In this document: piece by piece, positions 3,864-36,273 of the stretch | Layout of the letters: each line of letters begins with the position of its first letter | How positions within the stretch are numbered: the first letter of the stretch is position 1 | NCBI GenBank assembly: GCA_025964255.1 | Contig: JAOPZF010000120.1 | Coordinates: forward strand, 1-64,000 | From: Solirubrobacterales bacterium | GTDB taxonomy: Bacteria > Actinomycetota > Thermoleophilia > Solirubrobacterales > 70-9 | DNA length: 64,000 nt | Direction: 5' to 3' | Translations under genes and position numbers: made by a program | The notes under the pieces: generated by a model | The model's database searches: none | Told to the model about the DNA's origin: nothing | The model's input: the letters and a program-made list of their open reading frames with translations, nothing else

Positions 3864-5413
3864 TTCATCAGCTCCTTCACGGCGTCTTCGACCTTAGCGG
3901 GGTCGACCAGCTGGCCGATTCGGGGTTCGCCGGGCTCGGAGAGGAGGACGAAGCCGACGCCGGCGGCGGTCCGCTTCTTGTCGCGGCCGAGCGACTCGAT
4001 GATGTCGTCGACCTCGATCGGCACCTCGACGTGGGTCGGCAGGCCGTGCGTGGCTAGTACCGACTCGACTTCATCGCGGAGCGCCGGCGCGTCAGAGAGA
4101 CGGAGGGCCGCCAGCAGTCCCAGGCCGACCGCCTCGCCGTGTCGGTAGGCGGTGTACCCGGTCGCCGACTCGATCGCGTGGCCGACCGTGTGGCCGAGGT
4201 TGAGCACGTTGCGCAGGCCGGTGTCGCGCTCGTCGGCGGCGACGATCGCGCACTTGTAACGGGCGCAGGCGAAGATCACGTCGTCGAGCTCGGCCGGGTT
4301 CAGCTCCTTGATCGCCCGCACCCGCTCCCACAGCGCGCCGCCCGCGAGCAGCCCCGTCTTCAGCACCTCGACGAAGCCCGCCGCGAGCTCCAGTGGCGGC
4401 AGCGAGGCGAGCGTCTCGACGTCGGCGATCACCGCGGCGGGCTGCTGGAAGGCGCCCGCGTAGTTCTTGCCCTCGGGCAGGTCGACGCCGACCTTGCCGC
4501 CGTAGGCCGAGTCGACCTGGGAGACGAGCGTGGTCGGCACCTGGACCACCGGCACGCCGCGCTGGTAGAGATGGCCGACGAGCCCGGCGAGGTCGCCGAC
4601 GACACCGCCGCCGAGGGCGACGACGTGGTCGGAGCGGGTCGCGCCTTCGCGGCTCATCGCCCGGAGCACCTTCTCGGTGTTGGTGAGCGTCTTGGCCGTC
4701 TCCCCCGCTTCGATTTCGGCGGTCGCGGCGAGCGGCTCGAGCCGCTCCGCGTAGATCGGGCCGACCGAGCGATCGGTGACGAGGAAGCGGCGGCTCTCGA
4801 GCGGCCACCAGTCGGCGTCGAGCAGCCCGCGGCCGACCAGCACCGGGTACTCGCCGCCGGGCGCGCTCGCCCAGAGGAGCTTGGTGCCCGCTGGCATGTC
4901 GGCGAGGCGCCGGATCGTCGGCAAGGCGCGCCGGATCATCTGGCGATCGCCCATCGGGACGACCGCGTCGGCGAGCTCTTCGTAGAGCGGCAGACGGGTC
5001 GCGAGCAGCGTGCCGACCGACTCGGCGGAGCTCGCCAGCGGGCGATCGGAGTGGGCGATGCGGCGCCAGGCCTCGGCCGCGTCGACCTGCAGCCAGACGA
5101 CTATGTGGCGGGCCATCGCGGCGCGGATCCGCGGCGAGAGGACGCTGCCGCCGCCGAGGGCGATCGCGCCGCCGTCGTCGGCCTCCTCCAGCAACGCGCC
5201 GACCACCTCGGACTCGCGCTCGCGGAAGCCCTCCTCGCCGTGGTTCTCGAAGGCCTGCGGGATGGTCGAGCCGAAGCTCGCTTCCATCAGCTCGTCGATC
5301 TCGACCGTCGGCAGCCCTTCGCCGCGTGCCGCCGCCAGCGCGGTCGACTTGCCCGCGCCCATGAAGCCGACGAAGACGATCGAGGGCTGCCGCGACTCGC
5401 CCGCCGCACTCAC
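3860..5413 (-). CDS. aroKB: Fused shikimate kinase / 3-dehydroquinate synthase
   Basis: N-terminal P-loop GFMGAGKST and LGGGSVL (AroK) followed by ALGGGVVGDLAGLVGHLYQRGVPVVQVPTTLVSQVDSAYGGKVGVD and NLGHTVGHAIE (AroB). Confidence 0.93.
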   Translation of the reverse strand: MSAAGESRQPSIVFVGFMGAGKSTALAAARGEGLPTVEIDELMEASFGSTIPQAFENHGEEGFRERESEVVGALLEEADDGGAIALGGGSVLSPRIRAAMARHIVVWLQVDAAEAWRRIAHSDRPLASSAESVGTLLATRLPLYEELADAVVPMGDRQMIRRALPTIRRLADMPAGTKLLWASAPGGEYPVLVGRGLLDADWWPLESRRFLVTDRSVGPIYAERLEPLAATAEIEAGETAKTLTNTEKVLRAMSREGATRSDHVVALGGGVVGDLAGLVGHLYQRGVPVVQVPTTLVSQVDSAYGGKVGVDLPEGKNYAGAFQQPAAVIADVETLASLPPLELAAGFVEVLKTGLLAGGALWERVRAIKELNPAELDDVIFACARYKCAIVAADERDTGLRNVLNLGHTVGHAIESATGYTAYRHGEAVGLGLLAALRLSDAPALRDEVESVLATHGLPTHVEVPIEVDDIIESLGRDKKRTAAGVGFVLLSEPGEPRIGQLVDPAKVEDAVKELMK

Positions 5414-5429
5414 CGGGCCGCCGCCCCGC

Positions 5430-6596
5430 TCACCGCGCGTCGATCCGCGCCTTGTAGGCGTCGATCGCGCCGAGGACGTCGTCGATGTGGTCGCCGCCGA
5501 ACTTCTCCCGGTAGGCGCGCGCGAGGACCAGGCAGACCATCGCCTCGGCGACCACGGCGGCGGCCGGGACGACGGTCGAGTCGGTCCGCTCCCTCAGCGC
5601 CTGAGCTGGCTGGTGGGTTTCGGTGTCGACCGAGCGCAGCGGTTTCGTCAGCGTCGAGATCGGCTTGATTGCGGCGCGCACGGAGAGCGGCTGGCCGTTG
5701 GTCATGCCGCCCTCGAGGCCGCCGGCGCGGTTCGTTTCGCGGAAGTAGCCGTCCACCTCCGACCAGAAGATCTCATCGTGGGCTTCCGAGCCGGGTCGGG
5801 TCGCGACGTCCCAGGCTTCGCCGATCGCGACGCCCTTGATCGACTGGATCGAGGCGACCGCGCCGGCGAGGCGGCCGTCGAGGCGGTCTTCCCAGGAGAC
5901 GTGCGAGCCGAGCCCGGGGACGAGCCCGAAGGCGAGCACCTCGAAGGTGCCACCGAGGCTCTCGTTCGCCTTCCTCAGGCGGTTGATCTCCGCGACCATC
6001 TCTTTGGAGGCGTCGGGATCGAGCGTGCGGACCGGGTCGTCGTCGATCCCGGCGAAGTCGGCGGGCGTCAGGTTCTCGCGCTCGGCGGCGACGACCGAGG
6101 CGATCCGGGACACGTGACTGTGGACCTCGACGCCGAGCGCGGTGAGGAATCCGCGGGCGACCCCGCCGGCGGCAACGCGGGCGGCGGTCTCGCGGGCGCT
6201 GGCGCGCTCGAGCACGTTACGGATGTCGGTGAAGCCGTATTTCTGGGAGCCGACGAGGTCGGCGTGGCCGGGCCGCGGCAGGTGGACCTCTTCGGGCTCG
6301 AAGTCCTTGACCGGCCAGGGGTTCATCCGGTCTTCCCAGTTCTTGTAGTCGCGGTTGGCGACCAACAGGGCGATCGGGCTGCCGAGCGTACGACCGTGGC
6401 GGAGGCCGGAGCGGACCTCGACCGTGTCGGTCTCGATCCGCATGCGGCCGCCGCGCCCGTGGCCGAGCTGGCGCCGCGCCATGTCGCGGTCGAGCGCCTC
6501 GCGGTCGAGCTGCAGCCCGGCCGGGACGCCCTCGACGATCGCGGTCAGCCCAGGCCCGTGGGACTCCCCGGCGGTGGTGAATCGGAAGGCGGTCAT
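5430..6596 (-). CDS. aroC: Chorismate synthase
   Basis: FRFTTAGESHGPGLTAIVEGVPAGL N-terminus; RASARETAARVAAG; RSVDTETH. Confidence 0.96.
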   Translation of the reverse strand: MTAFRFTTAGESHGPGLTAIVEGVPAGLQLDREALDRDMARRQLGHGRGGRMRIETDTVEVRSGLRHGRTLGSPIALLVANRDYKNWEDRMNPWPVKDFEPEEVHLPRPGHADLVGSQKYGFTDIRNVLERASARETAARVAAGGVARGFLTALGVEVHSHVSRIASVVAAERENLTPADFAGIDDDPVRTLDPDASKEMVAEINRLRKANESLGGTFEVLAFGLVPGLGSHVSWEDRLDGRLAGAVASIQSIKGVAIGEAWDVATRPGSEAHDEIFWSEVDGYFRETNRAGGLEGGMTNGQPLSVRAAIKPISTLTKPLRSVDTETHQPAQALRERTDSTVVPAAAVVAEAMVCLVLARAYREKFGGDHIDDVLGAIDAYKARIDAR

Positions 6597-6619
6597 GAAC
6601 GTTCCACCCTATCGACCAT

Positions 6620-7414
6620 CTAGCGACGAACGGCGGTACGCATCGCCTCGATCGAGGGCTCCTCGCCGGTCCAGATACGCATCGAGAGCGCGCCCTGCTG
6701 GACCAGCATCTCGAGCCCGTCGACCGTGGTCGCGCCCGCGGCCGCGGCCGCGGCGAGCAGGGCGCTCGGCTCCTCCGTGTAGACCATGTCGAGGACGACC
6801 TGGCCGGGGACGAAGGAGTCGGCGGTGAGCGGCAGGTGCGCGAACGCGTCCTCGCCACCGAGCCCCACCGCGGTCGTATTGACGATCAGGGCGTAGTCGG
6901 CGGGGTTCGGGTGCTCCATGAATCCAACTTTGAAGTGCGCAGCCAGTTCTTCACCCTTGGACCGGGTTCGATTCCACACATCGACCTTCACCCCCGCGTC
7001 TGCCAATGCCCAGATCGCTGCCCTCGCGGCTCCACCCGCACCCAACACCAAGGCACGCTCACCATCCGGTAGGTAGGGAAGCGAACGCAGCAGGCCGCCG
7101 GCGTCGGTGTTATCGGCGACGATCAGTCCGTCGCGGAAGGTAAGCGTGTTGGCGGCGCCGATCGCGCGGGCGCTCTCGGTCGCCTCATCGGCCATCGCCA
7201 CCGCCGCCTCCTTGTGGGGCACCGTGATGTTCACCCCGGCGTACTCGCCCGCCGCCGACAGTTCGGCGATCGTCGCCTCGAAGTCCTCCGGCGACACGTC
7301 GATCGCACCGTAGGTCCACTCGCCCGCCAGGCCGAGGTCGGAGAGCGCCGCCGTCTGCATGTCCGGCGAGCGCGAGTGCGCCACCGGGTGACCGATCACC
7401 GCCAGTCCGGGCAT
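6620..7414 (-). CDS. aroE: Shikimate dehydrogenase
   Basis: VIGHPVAHSRSP, NITVPHKE, LGAGGAARA motifs. Confidence 0.95.
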   Translation of the reverse strand: MPGLAVIGHPVAHSRSPDMQTAALSDLGLAGEWTYGAIDVSPEDFEATIAELSAAGEYAGVNITVPHKEAAVAMADEATESARAIGAANTLTFRDGLIVADNTDAGGLLRSLPYLPDGERALVLGAGGAARAAIWALADAGVKVDVWNRTRSKGEELAAHFKVGFMEHPNPADYALIVNTTAVGLGGEDAFAHLPLTADSFVPGQVVLDMVYTEEPSALLAAAAAAGATTVDGLEMLVQQGALSMRIWTGEEPSIEAMRTAVRR

Positions 7415-7418
7415 CGGG

Positions 7419-9410
7419 CTATTCGGTGCATTTGGACGCTTCGTACTTCTTCACGTCCACTTCGAATTCCGCTTCGGTCGCGGAGAAATTCAGCGTCTTG
7501 CAGTTCGGGCTGGTGACGAAGAAGAGGAAGTTGCTCTTCGCCGGATGCGCCGCTGCGTTGATCGTCGCCAGCCCGGGATTGGAGATCGGGCCTGGCGGAA
7601 GCCCAGCGTGGTTGCGGGTGTTGTAGGGCGATTCGCTTTCCAGTTCCGACTGGGTCAGCGGCTTGGTGTAGTTACCGGTGGCGAAGCGGACCGTCGCGTC
7701 GCTGCCGAGCGTCATCCCTTCGCGCAGCCGGTTGTAGATCACCGATGCGACCTGCTTGCGCTGGCCCGCGACTCCGGACTCGTGTTCGATGATCGAGGCG
7801 ATCGTCAGCACGTCATAGATCGTCAGGTTTTTCGAGTTCGCGTACTTCATGTTCACGTGCTTGATCTTGCGCCGGAAGTCTTCGAGCTGCAACTGGACCA
7901 GGTTCTTCACCGGCTCGTGTCGCTTCATTTCCCACGTGTCGGGGAAGAGGAACCCTTCGAGGTTCTTCGCCTTCTTGCCGCCGTACTTGGCCGGGTTGAG
8001 GTACTTCGATTTGACCGTCGCCTTCATGTAGTTGCCCTTGAGGCCGTCTTCCCTGGCGAGCTGCGCGGCCTGCTTGCGGGTATAGCCCTCGGGGATCGTC
8101 ACCGTGACGATGCCCGGCTTGGCGGCCTGTTTGGGTTCTTCGGTGAGCTCGTCGATCGCGTCGCCGTAGCTCATCCCTTCCTTCATCGTGAATTTGCCGG
8201 CGAAGAGGTCGGAGCGCTTCCCGGCGATCGTCACGCGGGCCTGGAAGAGGGTCGAGCCGGAGACGACGAAACCGTCGGAGATGACGCCCTTCTTTTCCAG
8301 CAGGGTGCCGACTTCGCCGACGCTCGAGCCCTTCGGGATGTCGACGACGACTTTGCCGTGCCCTTCGCCGACGAAGGGCTGGAAGAGCGAGTTGAGGAAG
8401 ACCAGGATGAGGATCAGGACGACGGTCGCGAGGATCCGGAACGGGTGGCGCAGCAGCGCGCCGAGGAACCCGCCGCGACGATTGCCGCCCTCGCCATGGC
8501 GGCGGCCGGTACGCGCGGCGCCGGCCATGTTCGGGTCGCCCTCGTCGTGGAAGTCCTCGTCCTCGTCGAAGCCCCAGTCGTCGCGCGGTGGCGGCGGCTC
8601 CCAGTCCCCCGCCCCGGTCCGCTCGACCGGCACAGGCAACGGCACCTGCTCGCGGCGCGGCTGGTTGGGATCGAGCTGCGGCGTTTCGGCCGTGCCCGGA
8701 CCGGGATCGGCCTGCGGCGATTCAGCCGCCTGCGCGTGCGGCGCTTCCGTCTCCGGCGGGATCGGCTCAGGGAGAGCCTGTTCCGCGGTCGGAGGAGGGG
8801 CGGCGGGGGCTTCGGCCGTGGAAGGGTCGGGCTGCTGCGGCGCGGCTTGTTCTCCCGTGGGCGGGGCGGCAGGCTGTTCGGTGGTCGGGGGACCCGCGTC
8901 CACGGGCTGTTCCCCCGTCCGTGGGACTGCGGCTGCGGGTTGTTCAGACGTCGGCGGCGCTGGCGGCGGCGCGGGCGTTTCGCCGGTCGGCGGACCGGCG
9001 GGAGCATCGCTCGCTGCATTCGCCGCCGCCGCTCCACCGGCCGCTGCCGCGCTCGCGGAGGCGGCGCGTTTTGCTTTCCGTCGTCCCAGAAGTCGTTTCC
9101 GTCCCCGCTCGGCAGGGGCACTGCTCTGTGGCTCACCACCCGGCTCTGGGACCGGGAGCGGCGGCGGGGTCACGGGCTCGGCGGGCTCGTCCCAGAACTC
9201 CTGCTCCGGGGTCCGCGGCCGGGTAGGAGGCGGTGGCTCTTTCGGCGGGGGTGGCGGCGCGGCGGCCTCCTTCTGCTTGCGCTTGGACGCCTTGCCCGCC
9301 CGCTTCGCTGCGCGTTCGCGCCGGCGCTGCTCCCGCTCGACCGCGTCGTGGTCGTTCGGGTCGATGAACGGGTCGCCGCCCGGGTATTCCGAGCCGTGTT
9401 CGTCGCTCAT
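7419..9410 (-). CDS. mltG: Endolytic transglycosylase MltG with long Pro/Ala/Glu-rich N-terminal extension
   Basis: Single TM then MltG/YceG domain: IASIIEHESGVAGQRKQVASVIYNRLREGMTLGSDATV, PYNTRNHAGLPPGPISNPG. Confidence 0.93.
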   Translation of the reverse strand: MSDEHGSEYPGGDPFIDPNDHDAVEREQRRRERAAKRAGKASKRKQKEAAAPPPPPKEPPPPTRPRTPEQEFWDEPAEPVTPPPLPVPEPGGEPQSSAPAERGRKRLLGRRKAKRAASASAAAAGGAAAANAASDAPAGPPTGETPAPPPAPPTSEQPAAAVPRTGEQPVDAGPPTTEQPAAPPTGEQAAPQQPDPSTAEAPAAPPPTAEQALPEPIPPETEAPHAQAAESPQADPGPGTAETPQLDPNQPRREQVPLPVPVERTGAGDWEPPPPRDDWGFDEDEDFHDEGDPNMAGAARTGRRHGEGGNRRGGFLGALLRHPFRILATVVLILILVFLNSLFQPFVGEGHGKVVVDIPKGSSVGEVGTLLEKKGVISDGFVVSGSTLFQARVTIAGKRSDLFAGKFTMKEGMSYGDAIDELTEEPKQAAKPGIVTVTIPEGYTRKQAAQLAREDGLKGNYMKATVKSKYLNPAKYGGKKAKNLEGFLFPDTWEMKRHEPVKNLVQLQLEDFRRKIKHVNMKYANSKNLTIYDVLTIASIIEHESGVAGQRKQVASVIYNRLREGMTLGSDATVRFATGNYTKPLTQSELESESPYNTRNHAGLPPGPISNPGLATINAAAHPAKSNFLFFVTSPNCKTLNFSATEAEFEVDVKKYEASKCTE

Positions 9411-31856: not shown

Positions 31857-33164
31857 CTAGGCGACGGTCGTCGCGGTGCGGCGGAACTCTTCGAGCTGCT
31901 CGCCCATCGAATCGAGGTTGCAGGCGACCATTTCCGGCCAGGCCTTGTCCGGGTGGTCGGCGATCGTCTTCAGGCCGTTGCCGGAGATCACCGCGACGAC
32001 CGTCTCGTCCGGGGCGATCTTGCCCTGGGCAGCGAGCTGGCCGACCGTGGCGATCGTGGTGCCGCCGGCGGGCTCGGTGAGGATGCCCTCGGTGGCGCCG
32101 AGCAGGTCGATCGCCTCCCAGATCTCCGGGTCCGACGGCGTCGCCGCCGAGCCGCCGCGGGTGCGGACGGCATCGACGACCAGCGGGCCGTCACCGGGCG
32201 AGCCGATCGCCAACGAGTGGGCGGCGGTGTCCGGGGTCTGCGGCTCGATCTCGCCGCCCTCGAGGATCGCCGTGGCGATCGGGTCACAACCGCCCGCTTG
32301 GGCGATGTTGATCCGGCTGCCCGAGGTCTCGGCGAGGCCGACGATTTCCAGCTCGTTGAGCCCCTTGTGGACGCGCGAGGAGAGCGTGCCGCCGGCGGCC
32401 GGGATCACCCAGTGGTCGGGCGAGGTCCAGCCGAGCTCCTCGACGACCTCGAAGGCCATCGTCTTCGCCCCCTCGGCGTAGAACGGACGCAGGGTGATGT
32501 TGGCGAACTCGATCCCGCTCGCCAGCGAGAGCTCACGACAGGCGCGGTTGGCCTGGTCGTAATTGCCGTCGAGCTGACAGACCTGGGCGCCGAGGGCGCG
32601 ACAGGCTTTCGCCTTCCCCTTCTCCATGTTGCCGGGGTAGAAGACGTAGGCGGTGGCGCCGGCCTTGGCGGCGAGCGCCGCGACCGCGGTCCCGACGTTG
32701 CCGGTCGACACGCAGCCGATCTCGTCTTTGCCCAGCTCCAGCAGACGGGCGATCGACATGCTGACGACGCGGTCCTTGTAGGAGAGCGACGGGCGGTTGG
32801 TCGAGTCGTCCTTCAGATACAGGTTCTTCAGGCCGAACTCGGCGCCGAGCCGGTCGGCCTTGATCAGCGGCGTTTTGCCGGCGAACTGGCCGACCCGCGC
32901 CTGGGCGTCCGCCGATGTGATCGGCAGCAGCTCCTCGAAGCGCCAGATGTTCCAAGGACGACCCTCGAGGCCACGCTCGGCGATCGCCGCGGTGGCGCGC
33001 TCATAGTCGTAATCGATGTCGAGGCCGTCGCCGCAGGCCGGGCACTTGAAGGCCCGCTCTTCCAATGGGGCACGGTAGCCACAGTCCCGGCAGACGAGTT
33101 CCGTCGCGCAGGAACTGGTTCGACGGCCGATAGGCCCCCCCAGACGCTGCGTGTCGTTGCTCAT
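31857..33164 (-). CDS. thrC: Threonine synthase
   Basis: Zn-ribbon-like CRDCGYRAP...CPACG; PLP site SLSYKDRVVS; STGNVGTAVAALAAKAG. Confidence 0.88.
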   Translation of the reverse strand: MSNDTQRLGGPIGRRTSSCATELVCRDCGYRAPLEERAFKCPACGDGLDIDYDYERATAAIAERGLEGRPWNIWRFEELLPITSADAQARVGQFAGKTPLIKADRLGAEFGLKNLYLKDDSTNRPSLSYKDRVVSMSIARLLELGKDEIGCVSTGNVGTAVAALAAKAGATAYVFYPGNMEKGKAKACRALGAQVCQLDGNYDQANRACRELSLASGIEFANITLRPFYAEGAKTMAFEVVEELGWTSPDHWVIPAAGGTLSSRVHKGLNELEIVGLAETSGSRINIAQAGGCDPIATAILEGGEIEPQTPDTAAHSLAIGSPGDGPLVVDAVRTRGGSAATPSDPEIWEAIDLLGATEGILTEPAGGTTIATVGQLAAQGKIAPDETVVAVISGNGLKTIADHPDKAWPEMVACNLDSMGEQLEEFRRTATTVA

Positions 33165-33373: not shown

Positions 33374-33634
33374 TTGACCCCGCAGGAGCGCTTCGCCCAG
33401 AACCTCCGTCGTCGCCGTCTGGCGGTCGGGATCTCGCAGGAGGAGCTCGGCGAACGCACCGACCTGCACCGGACCGAGATCTCGCTGCTCGAGCGGGCCG
33501 GGCGCGAACCGCGCTTCGCCACGCTGCTGAAGCTCTGCGGGGCGCTCGGCACGTCGCCGAACGACCTCTGTGCGGGAACCGGCTGGGACCACGTGAAGCG
33601 CGTCTTCACGGTCGAGCCGCCCGCCGCGGACTGA
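33374..33634 (+). CDS. XRE-family HTH regulator (86 aa)
   Basis: FAQNLRRRRLAVGISQEELGERTDLHRTEISLLERAGREPRFATLLKLCGALGTSPNDL. Confidence 0.85.
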   Translation: MTPQERFAQNLRRRRLAVGISQEELGERTDLHRTEISLLERAGREPRFATLLKLCGALGTSPNDLCAGTGWDHVKRVFTVEPPAAD

Positions 33635-33988: not shown

Positions 33989-36232
33989 CTAGGAGGCTGC
34001 GGTGACGGCGTCCTCGGCGGCGACGGCGATCGTGCTCGCATCGGGCCAGACGCCCGGCAGGTCGTCGCTGGTGAAGCGGCCGGAGTTGATCAAGATCCCC
34101 TCGGCGGCGTGCGGGGCGAACGGCTGCAGGGCGCGCGCAACGAGCAGGATCGCAGCGACCAGCGCCTCGGCATCCGCGGTGTCGAGCTGGCCCTTCTTCT
34201 TCAGCTGTTGCTCGAACTGCTGGATCCGCTCGAAAAGGCGGGTCAGGTTGCGGATCGCCTTGTGCATCTGCAGGTTGGCGGTGTCATCGGCGATCCGCTG
34301 CAGCCCGTTCTCGCACCAGCCGCGCAGCTTCTCCCGCTGTTTCTCGGTCGCCGCCGCCTTCTCCGGATCGTGCTTGGAGCCCTCGAGCTCGACCATTCGA
34401 TCGTGCGCGTAGATCCAGAAGCTGCGGAGGAATTTGTTGGCGAAGCGGATCGCCGCGTCGGACCAGTTCAGCGTCTTCGCCGGCCCCGCCGCCCAGAGGA
34501 CGGCGACGCGGATCGTGTCGGCGCCGAACTGACCCACCAGCTCGTCAGGGTTGACGACGTTGCCGAGGTGCTTCGACATCTTGCGACCCTCCGAGATCAC
34601 CATCTCGTGGAAGAGGCAGCCCTCGAACGGCTCGCCGTCGGTCATGTAGGCGAACTCGCCGTGGTCGCGCAGCGCCTTGGTGACGACCCGCTGGTCGAAG
34701 ACGAAGTTGCCGGAGTCGCCACCGGCGACGAGGCGCTCGGCGGGCAGCCACTTCTTCGACTCGGGGTGGGTGAACATCTGCGTCGCCCGGTCCTCCGGCG
34801 GCAGCGTCGCCGGGACCCAGAGGAAGAGCGCGTCGAAGTGGCAGTCGAGCGTGTCGGTCTCCCGCTTCGCCGGCTTCCCGCAGACGGGGCACTCGACGTC
34901 GACGAAGTCGGAGCGCTCGGCGAGCGGATTCCCTTCGCCGGTCGCCACCAGGTCGCGCGGGAGGACGACGGGCAGGTCGGCCTCGGGCACCGGCACCGGC
35001 CCGTGGTCGGGGCAGTGGATGACCGGGATCGGCGTCCCCCAGGAGCGCTGGCGGGAGATCGAGAAGTCGTTGGCGCGGTAGCGCTTCGCCTCCTGAGCAC
35101 CGGCGACCGGCGCGCTCGGCGGCGGTGCGTCGTCGGCGGGGACCTCCCCCACCTCGACACGGTCGACGCGCTCGGCGATGTCGCGGTCGGCCTCGTCGAC
35201 CGCCGGGATGCCAAGGACGGCGGCGGGGCCGTAGCGGGCGTCGACCAGCGGCGAGACCAGCAGGGGAAGCTCGCCCTTCGGCCCGGAGACCGTCAGACCC
35301 GTGCCGATGACCGGGACCTCTTTGGCGTCGCGGGCGCTCCGCTCCCAGCCGCCCGAGCGCAGCTGCTCGAGCTGCTCGCGCACCTCGCCGGCGGCCAGCG
35401 TCTCCACCAACGGGTGCCGCGGCGAGAGCAGGACGAAGGTCGCCAGGCCCGCGGCGTCCGCGTGCGGCGTGAAGACGGTCAGCGGCCCGTCGGGTCCGTC
35501 GACCTCGAACTCGACCCCGTCGGTGCGCCCGAGGATGAAGCGCTGCGAGGCGAGCGCCAGGTCGTCCCACGGCTGCGCCTCGAGCTTCGCCATGTTGGCG
35601 TCGTTCTCCTCAAGATAAGGCGTGATCTTCAGGAACCAGGTCGGCTTGCGGATCAGCCGCACCTCGTTGTGGCAGCGCCAGCAGGTGCCGCCCTCCTCGA
35701 CCTGGATCGTCGCCAGCGTCGTCTGGCAGGTGTCGCACCAATCGACGGTCGCATCGTCGAGGTAGATCAGCCCCATGTCGTAGAGGGTCAGGAAGAGCCA
35801 CTGCGACCAGCGGTACTGGCCCTCGTCGGAGCTGTAGAAGACGCGGTCGTAGTCGAAGCTGTAGCCGAGTCGCTTCATCTGCTCGAGCATCCGCTCGCCG
35901 CACTGCTCGACCCACTCGGCGGCGGGGATCTGGCGCTCGATCGCGGCGAGCTCGGCGGGCAATCCGAAGGCGTCGAAGCCGAAGCCCATCAGCACGTCAC
36001 GGCCGCGGGCGCGCTGGAAACGGGCGTAGGCGTCGCCGATCGTGTAGTCGCGGACGTGGCCCATGTGCAGGTTGCCCGAGGTGAACGGGCTCGAGGACTT
36101 GACGTAGACGCCGCGCTCGCCATCGGCGGGTGGCGTGGGCGCGTCATAGTCGCCGCGGTCGATCCACGCGGCCTGCCGCTCGGTCTCGATCCGGGCAGCG
36201 TCGTAGGGCGGCTTGCGGGCGTTCTCGGTCAT
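33989..36232 (-). CDS. Divergent leucyl-tRNA synthetase-like class I aaRS (747 aa)
   Basis: SSSPFTSGNLHMGHVRDYTIGDAYARFQ, GFDAFGLPAE, KPTWFLKITPY, FSISRQRSWGTPIP, EGRKMSKHLGNVVNPDELVGQFGADTIR. Confidence 0.82.
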   Translation of the reverse strand: MTENARKPPYDAARIETERQAAWIDRGDYDAPTPPADGERGVYVKSSSPFTSGNLHMGHVRDYTIGDAYARFQRARGRDVLMGFGFDAFGLPAELAAIERQIPAAEWVEQCGERMLEQMKRLGYSFDYDRVFYSSDEGQYRWSQWLFLTLYDMGLIYLDDATVDWCDTCQTTLATIQVEEGGTCWRCHNEVRLIRKPTWFLKITPYLEENDANMAKLEAQPWDDLALASQRFILGRTDGVEFEVDGPDGPLTVFTPHADAAGLATFVLLSPRHPLVETLAAGEVREQLEQLRSGGWERSARDAKEVPVIGTGLTVSGPKGELPLLVSPLVDARYGPAAVLGIPAVDEADRDIAERVDRVEVGEVPADDAPPPSAPVAGAQEAKRYRANDFSISRQRSWGTPIPVIHCPDHGPVPVPEADLPVVLPRDLVATGEGNPLAERSDFVDVECPVCGKPAKRETDTLDCHFDALFLWVPATLPPEDRATQMFTHPESKKWLPAERLVAGGDSGNFVFDQRVVTKALRDHGEFAYMTDGEPFEGCLFHEMVISEGRKMSKHLGNVVNPDELVGQFGADTIRVAVLWAAGPAKTLNWSDAAIRFANKFLRSFWIYAHDRMVELEGSKHDPEKAAATEKQREKLRGWCENGLQRIADDTANLQMHKAIRNLTRLFERIQQFEQQLKKKGQLDTADAEALVAAILLVARALQPFAPHAAEGILINSGRFTSDDLPGVWPDASTIAVAAEDAVTAAS

Positions 36233-36273
36233 GCAATCAACGTTAGCTGAGGTGCCAAGCGCCACAGCGCCGC

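Follow-up and report, generated by a model that had tools for sequence, protein, structure and literature searches.

What is a divergent gene of leucyl-tRNA synthetase (LeuRS) ancestry doing in the genome of a Solirubrobacterales bacterium, and with which tRNA does its product work? We analyzed a window of 64,000 nucleotides (GenBank assembly GCA_025964255.1, contig JAOPZF010000120.1, positions 1 to 64,000) in which such a gene lies on the minus strand, from 36232 to 33989, and we refer to its product and its relatives as LeuRS-P. The comparisons described below demonstrate that LeuRS-P is a separate family of LeuRS origin and is not the LeuRS of the cell. Across related soil bacteria, its genes occur together with genes for tRNAs that carry additional structure inside the D-loop, and it is probable, in our judgment, that LeuRS-P is an old synthetase that has given up leucine and tRNA-Leu in favor of a dedicated D-armed tRNA of its own.

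The window gene is a paralogue of the canonical leuS

The gene is an open frame of 747 amino acids from its ATG, and a GTG upstream of this, at 36265, is an alternative start that gives 758 amino acids. The initial annotation of this DNA, in which the strand was unstated, had described a 747-amino-acid protein ending near VWPDAS without a C-terminal domain, and both features were as claimed. The LeuRS-derived motifs that it had listed (HMGHVRDYTIGDAYARF, GFDAFGLPAE, KPTWFLKIT, and SRQRSWGTPIP) were all found, as were the altered ones: KMSKH, FTPHADA, AVLGIPAVDEAD in the AVMAVPAHDxRD region, and AGGDSGNFVFDQRVV in the GGIEHAxxHLLYxRF segment. The best NCBIfam model for the protein was bacterial leuS (TIGR00396), with a score of 436 bits that is under the curated cut-off of 548, and the structures closest to its AlphaFold2 model (mean pLDDT of 78.5) were those of LeuRS, with a TM score of 0.74 for the Neisseria gonorrhoeae enzyme.

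The source genome, assembled into 277 contigs that total 4.0 Mb, carries a canonical leuS of 840 amino acids on another contig, and the window gene is therefore a paralogue, as had been proposed. The identity between the window protein and this canonical LeuRS is 33%. The initial annotation had also considered that this might be the sole leuS of the genome and of its relatives, which would make its substitutions ordinary ones of the lineage; this does not hold, since a canonical leuS is present here and stands beside LeuRS-P in nearly all carrier genomes, the exceptions being incomplete genomes.

Relatives were gathered by a related-locus search and by whole-genome searches of the class, phylum, and order, and most of the genomes compared were metagenome assemblies. 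LeuRS-P was found in 46 of the 232 genomes of the order, where most full-length proteins scored above 1000 bits and the most divergent full copy scored 832. No further LeuRS-P was detected in a 398-genome sample of the phylum, in which other matches reached at most 616 bits, and a search of plasmids returned ordinary LeuRS only; within this phylum sample and these plasmids, a spread beyond the order was rejected. The initial annotation had left the placement of the protein to phylogeny. In a maximum-likelihood tree whose canonical set took in Pseudomonadota, Bacillota, and a haloarchaeal enzyme, LeuRS-P formed a single clade, separate from every canonical LeuRS in the sample (98/96 support), which ruled out a recent copy of the cell's own LeuRS; a Subdoligranulum outgroup row was in the wrong frame and was disregarded. 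We distinguish type A, the group of the window gene, in genera g1, g306, and g27, from type B, which comprises the copies of g21, a genus resembling Conexibacter, the second copies carried by genomes G590, G678, and G615, and the copy of G706.

The ratio of nonsynonymous to synonymous substitution rates (dN/dS) was about 0.25 to 0.29 for LeuRS-P and 0.16 for the canonical leuS gene, and LeuRS-P is therefore under purifying selection. The histidine of KMSKH, a proline at the second threonine of TTRPDT, and a phenylalanine at the tyrosine before the HIGH motif were present in 19 of 19 type-A proteins, and the C-terminal domain is missing family-wide. These changes are thus not the product of chance or of sequencing error.

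Catalytic motifs are kept while the leucine pocket and editing site are altered

The HIGH motif of the window protein reads HMGH (36056 to 36067, minus strand; residues 67 to 70 in the 758-amino-acid reading), and the KMSKS motif reads KMSKH (34568 to 34582, minus strand), with a histidine that is invariant in the aligned catalytic LeuRS-P proteins. HMGH, both KMSK lysines, and the residue equivalent to Asp80 of Thermus thermophilus LeuRS were kept across types A and B; in the A1 group HMGH, KMSKH, and D98, which corresponds to Asp80, were invariant. Pocket residues were numbered by alignment to the T. thermophilus enzyme, in which M40, F41, Y43, F501, S504, Y507, H541, and H545 are taken by us to line the leucine pocket. 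All eight are replaced in type A: M40 by S, F41 by S or A, Y43 by F, F501 by H (His476 of the window protein, at 34838 to 34840, minus strand), S504 by A, Y507 by L, H541 by S, and H545 by F. Type B departs from LeuRS at the same positions, with other residues. Two positively charged residues, K56 and R511 (positions 38 and 534 in T. thermophilus), occur in type A only and may lie near the amino-acid pocket.

In the CP1 editing domain (35096 to 35530, minus strand), TTRPDT has become TPHADA and HDxRD has become VDEAD, with both aspartates retained, and key editing residues are lost in LeuRS-P. The C-terminal domain that reaches the tRNA elbow is absent from the whole family, and the anticodon-binding helical bundle is retained. 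Taken together, the kept HMGH, KMSK, and Asp80, the changed pocket, and the altered editing site suggest that amino-acid activation by LeuRS-P is probably intact, that leucine is probably not its substrate, and that standard leucine editing is probably disabled. Of the two suggestions in the initial annotation that bear on this, a paralogue with relaxed or no editing was right as to the paralogue and the damaged editing site, with the loss of editing itself a prediction, and a repurposed amino acid-activating enzyme was on the right track given the remodelled pocket and damaged editing site, with the activity likewise predicted from the residues.

A separate divergent LeuRS was seen in a different actinobacterial family (G461, locus L051). 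It has Y at M40 and the editing motif TTTPEL, is 40% identical to the canonical leuS product of the source genome, and falls outside the main canonical clade; the same genome also holds a second leuS match.

A giant tRNA adjoins type-B LeuRS-P

Genome G198, a single contig of 6.36 Mb, has a full ordinary tRNA set and, about 220 bp upstream of its LeuRS-P gene, a weak partial tRNA match. The sequence upstream of type-B LeuRS-P genes contains a tRNA that is interrupted inside the D-loop. A covariance model of this giant tRNA was built from seven copies and run over the order. It found the giant tRNA, of about 200 to 218 nt, at 11 of 11 type-B loci, 19 to 222 bp from LeuRS-P and on the same strand, upstream of the gene at nine loci and downstream of it at two. 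The giant tRNA was also found at one locus in G599 and one in G715, in both cases next to a degenerate LeuRS-like frame; these two loci were designated type C.

All 13 copies have fully paired acceptor (7/7), D (4/4), anticodon (5/5), and T (5/5) stems, an acceptor-T branch of 7/5, A73, U33, and a D-loop of 137 to 153 nt (139 to 153 nt at the 11 type-B loci), and the stems and the structured D-loop insert covary. The anticodon is UAG in seven copies, UUG in two, UUC in two, UAA in one, and CCU in one. The tRNA model of Rfam covers no more than a part of the approximately 210-nt form. A group I intron was rejected, there being no Rfam match, and further calls of long tRNAs in G670 proved spurious. 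No match to the giant RNA was found in plasmids or phages.

At the type-C locus of G599 (L231), the RNA, with anticodon CCU, occupies 5030 to 5230 on the minus strand, with genes at 5212 to 7080 (plus) and 7101 to 8903 (minus). The LeuRS-like protein lacks HIGH and KMSKS, and an ArgRS-like paralogue on the opposite strand adjoins it (87 bits against a cut-off of 262); this is possibly a pseudo-synthetase with a new catalytic partner. In G715 (L232:6567-8242) the giant tRNA, with anticodon UUC, precedes a LeuRS-like frame that is degenerate and is cut off by the end of the contig.

A 96-nt D-armed tRNA tracks type-A LeuRS-P

The order-wide search with the giant-tRNA model also brought a shorter class to the surface. 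This type-A RNA is a 96-nt tRNA with a 7-bp hairpin within the D-loop, a D-stem (GCUC/GAGC) that brackets the hairpin, a 7/5 acceptor-T domain, A73, and a constant anticodon loop, CUUUCAA, that contains the anticodon UUC. The hairpin shows covariation: both sides have changed at five of its seven pairs, and 96.7% of cells pair. When a covariance model of the 96-nt class was run over the order, it gave 104 to 118 bits in 35 genomes, all of them type A, and at most 74 bits for every other match. The 96-nt tRNA was thus present in 35 of the 39 type-A genomes and in none of the 193 others (Fisher p about 2e-37, a value that ignores kinship among genomes), and the four type-A genomes without it are all 58 to 78% complete. 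The copy of the source genome lies outside the window, at G000:C136:11654-11749 on the minus strand.

ARAGORN labels this RNA tRNA-Pro, tRNA-Ala, or unknown. Its reading as tRNA-Sec or as a class II tRNA was rejected on account of the 7/5 acceptor branch and the D-stem around the hairpin, and the class II fold given by ARAGORN leaves the D-stem unpaired. Two copies of the class are present in each of G592 and G674. G589 has a second D-armed tRNA with anticodon UUC (G589:C18:27136-27226; L285:87-177, plus strand), which is 91 nt long, has a D-loop hairpin of 4 bp, and differs in its acceptor stem (GCCCCCA).

The pairing of LeuRS-P with a D-armed tRNA therefore takes the form of near-perfect co-occurrence in type A and of adjacency in type B. 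Because a synthetase whose pocket is new and whose elbow domain is missing tracks a tRNA with extra structure at the elbow, a dedicated pair is the simplest reading of these results. LeuRS-P would adenylate an amino acid other than leucine and transfer it onto the D-armed tRNA. The C-terminal domain of bacterial LeuRS touches the tRNA corner, and its loss would free room for the D-loop arm, which in turn would keep canonical synthetases off. LeuRS is not known to need the anticodon, and the varied anticodons of type B fit such a partnership.

Possible use of the pair in translation

We considered whether the type-A tRNA, with its UUC anticodon, serves to decode GAA. Compared with the G198 set of tRNA species, the near-complete genome G589 lacks only the ordinary tRNA-Glu(UUC), and it has two D-armed UUC tRNAs, of 96 and 91 nt. 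In G670, of which about half of the genome was read, an Asp-Val-Lys tRNA cluster is present without tRNA-Glu(UUC), which adjoins the Lys gene in G198; no GluRS was seen in the half that was read, which is uninformative. The meaning of GAA appears unchanged. GAA sites align with GAG, and 60% of their non-identical partners are Glu, compared to 48% for CAA to Gln and 36% for AAA to Lys. That GAA has come to stand for a different amino acid was rejected, because its alignment with GAG is no worse than the alignment within these control synonymous pairs.

Should the ordinary tRNA-Glu(UUC) indeed be absent, GAA would be decoded as glutamate by the D-armed tRNA, loaded either by LeuRS-P or by GluRS. 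Since the ordinary tRNA-Glu(UUC) appears to be lost, we tentatively suggest, as a doubtful possibility, that in type A the D-armed tRNA has taken on the decoding of GAA and carries glutamate or something that is read as glutamate. Window-type LeuRS-P may in that case be a LeuRS-derived glutamyl enzyme. A wider version, in which LeuRS-P took over GAA through tRNA(UUC) and sister lineages use tRNAs with D-loops of about 150 nt on other rare codons, also seems to us possible but on the unlikely side. If true, the takeover of GAA would amount either to a glutamyl system that evolved a second time, independently, or to an opening in the code for a non-standard amino acid. In G198, the giant UAG tRNA is present along with an ordinary tRNA-Leu(UAG), which makes a decoding role less likely in type B.

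Several findings weigh against a dedicated charging pair or its use in decoding. The type-A tRNA gene does not adjoin the LeuRS-P gene, so the pairing there depends on co-occurrence. The anticodons of type B vary (UAG, UAA, UUG, and UUC), which disfavors one fixed codon. In type C, the giant RNA of G599 and G715 sits by a degenerate LeuRS-like protein without catalytic motifs, and charging is therefore not obligatory in every branch. Lastly, the loss of tRNA-Glu(UUC) was shown in one near-complete metagenome-assembled genome and is backed by the partial reading of a second.

Neighboring genes

In the window, the gene for ThrC2, a second threonine-synthase-like enzyme of the pyridoxal phosphate (PLP) type, lies at 31857 to 33164 on the minus strand. 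Between it and LeuRS-P, on the opposite strand, is a small helix-turn-helix gene (33374 to 33634, plus; assigned to the XRE type by eye) that is kept in genus g1 only. ThrC2 is usually just downstream of LeuRS-P in type A, and its orthologues occur only in the three type-A genera. In G592 the two genes are no longer adjacent, and in G682, which is counted among the 39 type-A genomes, ThrC2 accompanies a LeuRS-P fragment cut by the contig end. The source genome has two further thrC-like genes. One is beside hom and is likely the biosynthetic thrC; the other (L039:1411-3002, plus; G000:C88) is followed by a SAMP1/MoaD-like small-modifier gene and is present across nearly the whole order.

Other copies have other neighbors. 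SbnA and SbnB, both over their curated cut-offs and associated with 2,3-diaminopropionate synthesis, adjoin the second LeuRS-P copy of G615 in divergent orientation (L107:5903-8033, minus; G615:C13), with a YbdK/GCS2-type ligase nearby. In G706, genes for an AurF-like N-oxygenase and a GNAT acetyltransferase lie downstream of LeuRS-P on the same strand (L108:11125-12593, plus). The type-B copies of G590 and G678 are divergent to genes for an isochorismatase-family hydrolase and HypE (L109:4469-8498, minus; L111:10771-12464, plus), and HypF follows HypE in L109. We found no transferase-like partner conserved near LeuRS-P or its tRNA gene, and the window-type gene showed no link to a resistance or biosynthetic cluster. 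The ThrC2, SbnA/SbnB, and AurF-like and GNAT neighbors make it a live possibility that adjoining genes supply LeuRS-P with a special amino acid.

Alternative explanations

This possibility leads to the alternative that survives best, namely, that the LeuRS-P/D-armed tRNA pair serves tRNA-dependent biosynthesis and not ribosomal decoding, with a special amino acid, for example from ThrC2 or SbnA/SbnB, donated to a metabolite, a peptide, or an envelope modification. The restriction of ThrC2 to type-A genera, its usual adjacency, and the SbnA/SbnB and AurF-like and GNAT genes beside the G615 and G706 copies all fit, as do the variable type-B anticodons, the very large D-loop insert, and the ordinary tRNA-Leu(UAG) present in G198 with the giant UAG tRNA. 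However, the invariant CUUUCAA loop of type A and the apparent absence of ordinary tRNA-Glu(UUC) point to decoding, and a conserved transferase-like gene is missing near either partner. We regard the biosynthetic role as a serious contender but would not expect it to prevail.

A tRNA-free activation of an amino acid by LeuRS-P, with the D-armed tRNA belonging elsewhere, is unlikely. The lost C-terminal domain and the changed pocket are consistent with this, and the adjoining PLP enzymes could supply an unusual amino acid, but the anticodon-binding helical bundle is kept and a tRNA with an unusual elbow structure tracks LeuRS-P. Class I enzymes of this kind are MshC and the MetRS-like hydrazine synthetases, in which the anticodon-binding region has presumably been lost. 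They are the precedents for tRNA-free activation (PMC9437257, PMC11705231).

It is also quite unlikely that LeuRS-P has lost the charging of tRNA and serves in binding or regulation. Archaeal LeuRS-I forms an adenylate and does not aminoacylate (PMC9437257), and the LeuRS-like proteins of G599 and G715 stand beside the same giant RNA without HIGH and KMSKS; the conservation of HMGH, KMSK, and Asp80 in types A and B argues the other way. Finally, a spare or antibiotic-insensitive LeuRS, the latter proposed by the initial annotation, would agree with the LeuRS ancestry and with known duplicates of that kind (PMC9437257), but it is highly improbable given the replacement of all eight leucine pocket residues, the loss of the elbow domain, the identity of only 33% to the cell's own LeuRS, and the window-type gene's lack of a linked resistance or biosynthetic cluster.

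Comparison with known systems

Natural private synthetase-tRNA pairs are rare, and they show how the genetic code may be extended or bent. D-armed tRNAs are missed or misread by standard tRNA finders, and the proposed pair is overlooked in standard annotation. Culturable relatives, such as G198-like Conexibacter, would make charging, decoding, and essentiality directly testable, and the pair is a candidate tool for genetic code expansion.

Several known systems resemble parts of this one. In LeuRS-I of the Sulfolobaceae, the editing domain is disrupted and the C-terminal domain has diverged; like LeuRS-I and LeuRS2 of Halobacteria (PMC9437257), LeuRS-P is a LeuRS duplicate that has seemingly departed from ordinary leucylation; unlike them, it is of bacterial type, has no C-terminal domain, and tracks its own tRNA. 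The haloarchaeal plasmid LeuRS that we sampled also differs from LeuRS-P, since it groups with the canonical LeuRS and its leucine pocket is intact. With MshC and the MetRS-like hydrazine synthetases (PMC9437257, PMC11705231), LeuRS-P shares a repurposed class I synthetase core for activating amino acids, but those enzymes work without tRNA, whereas LeuRS-P keeps the anticodon bundle and tracks a tRNA partner.

On the tRNA side, the D-armed tRNAs resemble the allo-tRNAs (Mukai 2017, reviewed in PMC7609411), which are non-canonical, bacterial, and varied in anticodon, some with a proposed fifth arm. In allo-tRNAs the acceptor branch is 12 bp long (8/4 or 9/3), and an extra loop lies between the acceptor and the D-arm; D-armed tRNAs, in contrast, are 7/5 in all copies and have the extra arm inside the D-loop. 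CysRS* with selC* tRNA-Cys and PylRS with tRNA-Pyl (PMC9437257, PMC7609411) are likewise private pairs with a structurally unusual tRNA, but they belong to other enzyme families, and their tRNA changes are in the acceptor branch and a small D-loop, whereas the partner of LeuRS-P has an arm or an insert of 100 nt or more inside the D-loop. In the open-licence literature searched, including the accessible part of the non-canonical tRNA review PMC7609411, we found no comparable D-loop insert. The pair thus joins a synthetase of apparently changed amino acid to a tRNA body outside those that this part of the review covers.

The nearest known system by behavior is ProRSx/tRNA-ProA of Streptomyces, in which a duplicated synthetase has co-evolved with its own tRNA and keeps the amino acid of its parent (Vargas-Rodriguez 2021, reviewed in PMC9437257). 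Like ProRSx, LeuRS-P stands beside a housekeeping copy and has its own unusual tRNA with an anticodon that mismatches the parent enzyme. Unlike ProRSx, whose parent is ProRS and whose amino acid is kept, LeuRS-P has a rebuilt pocket, and no D-loop insertion like that of its partner is described for tRNA-ProA (PMC9437257). Judged by sequence, what would set the LeuRS-P system apart from ProRSx is its parent family, a probable change of amino acid, and the insertion in the D-loop of its tRNA.
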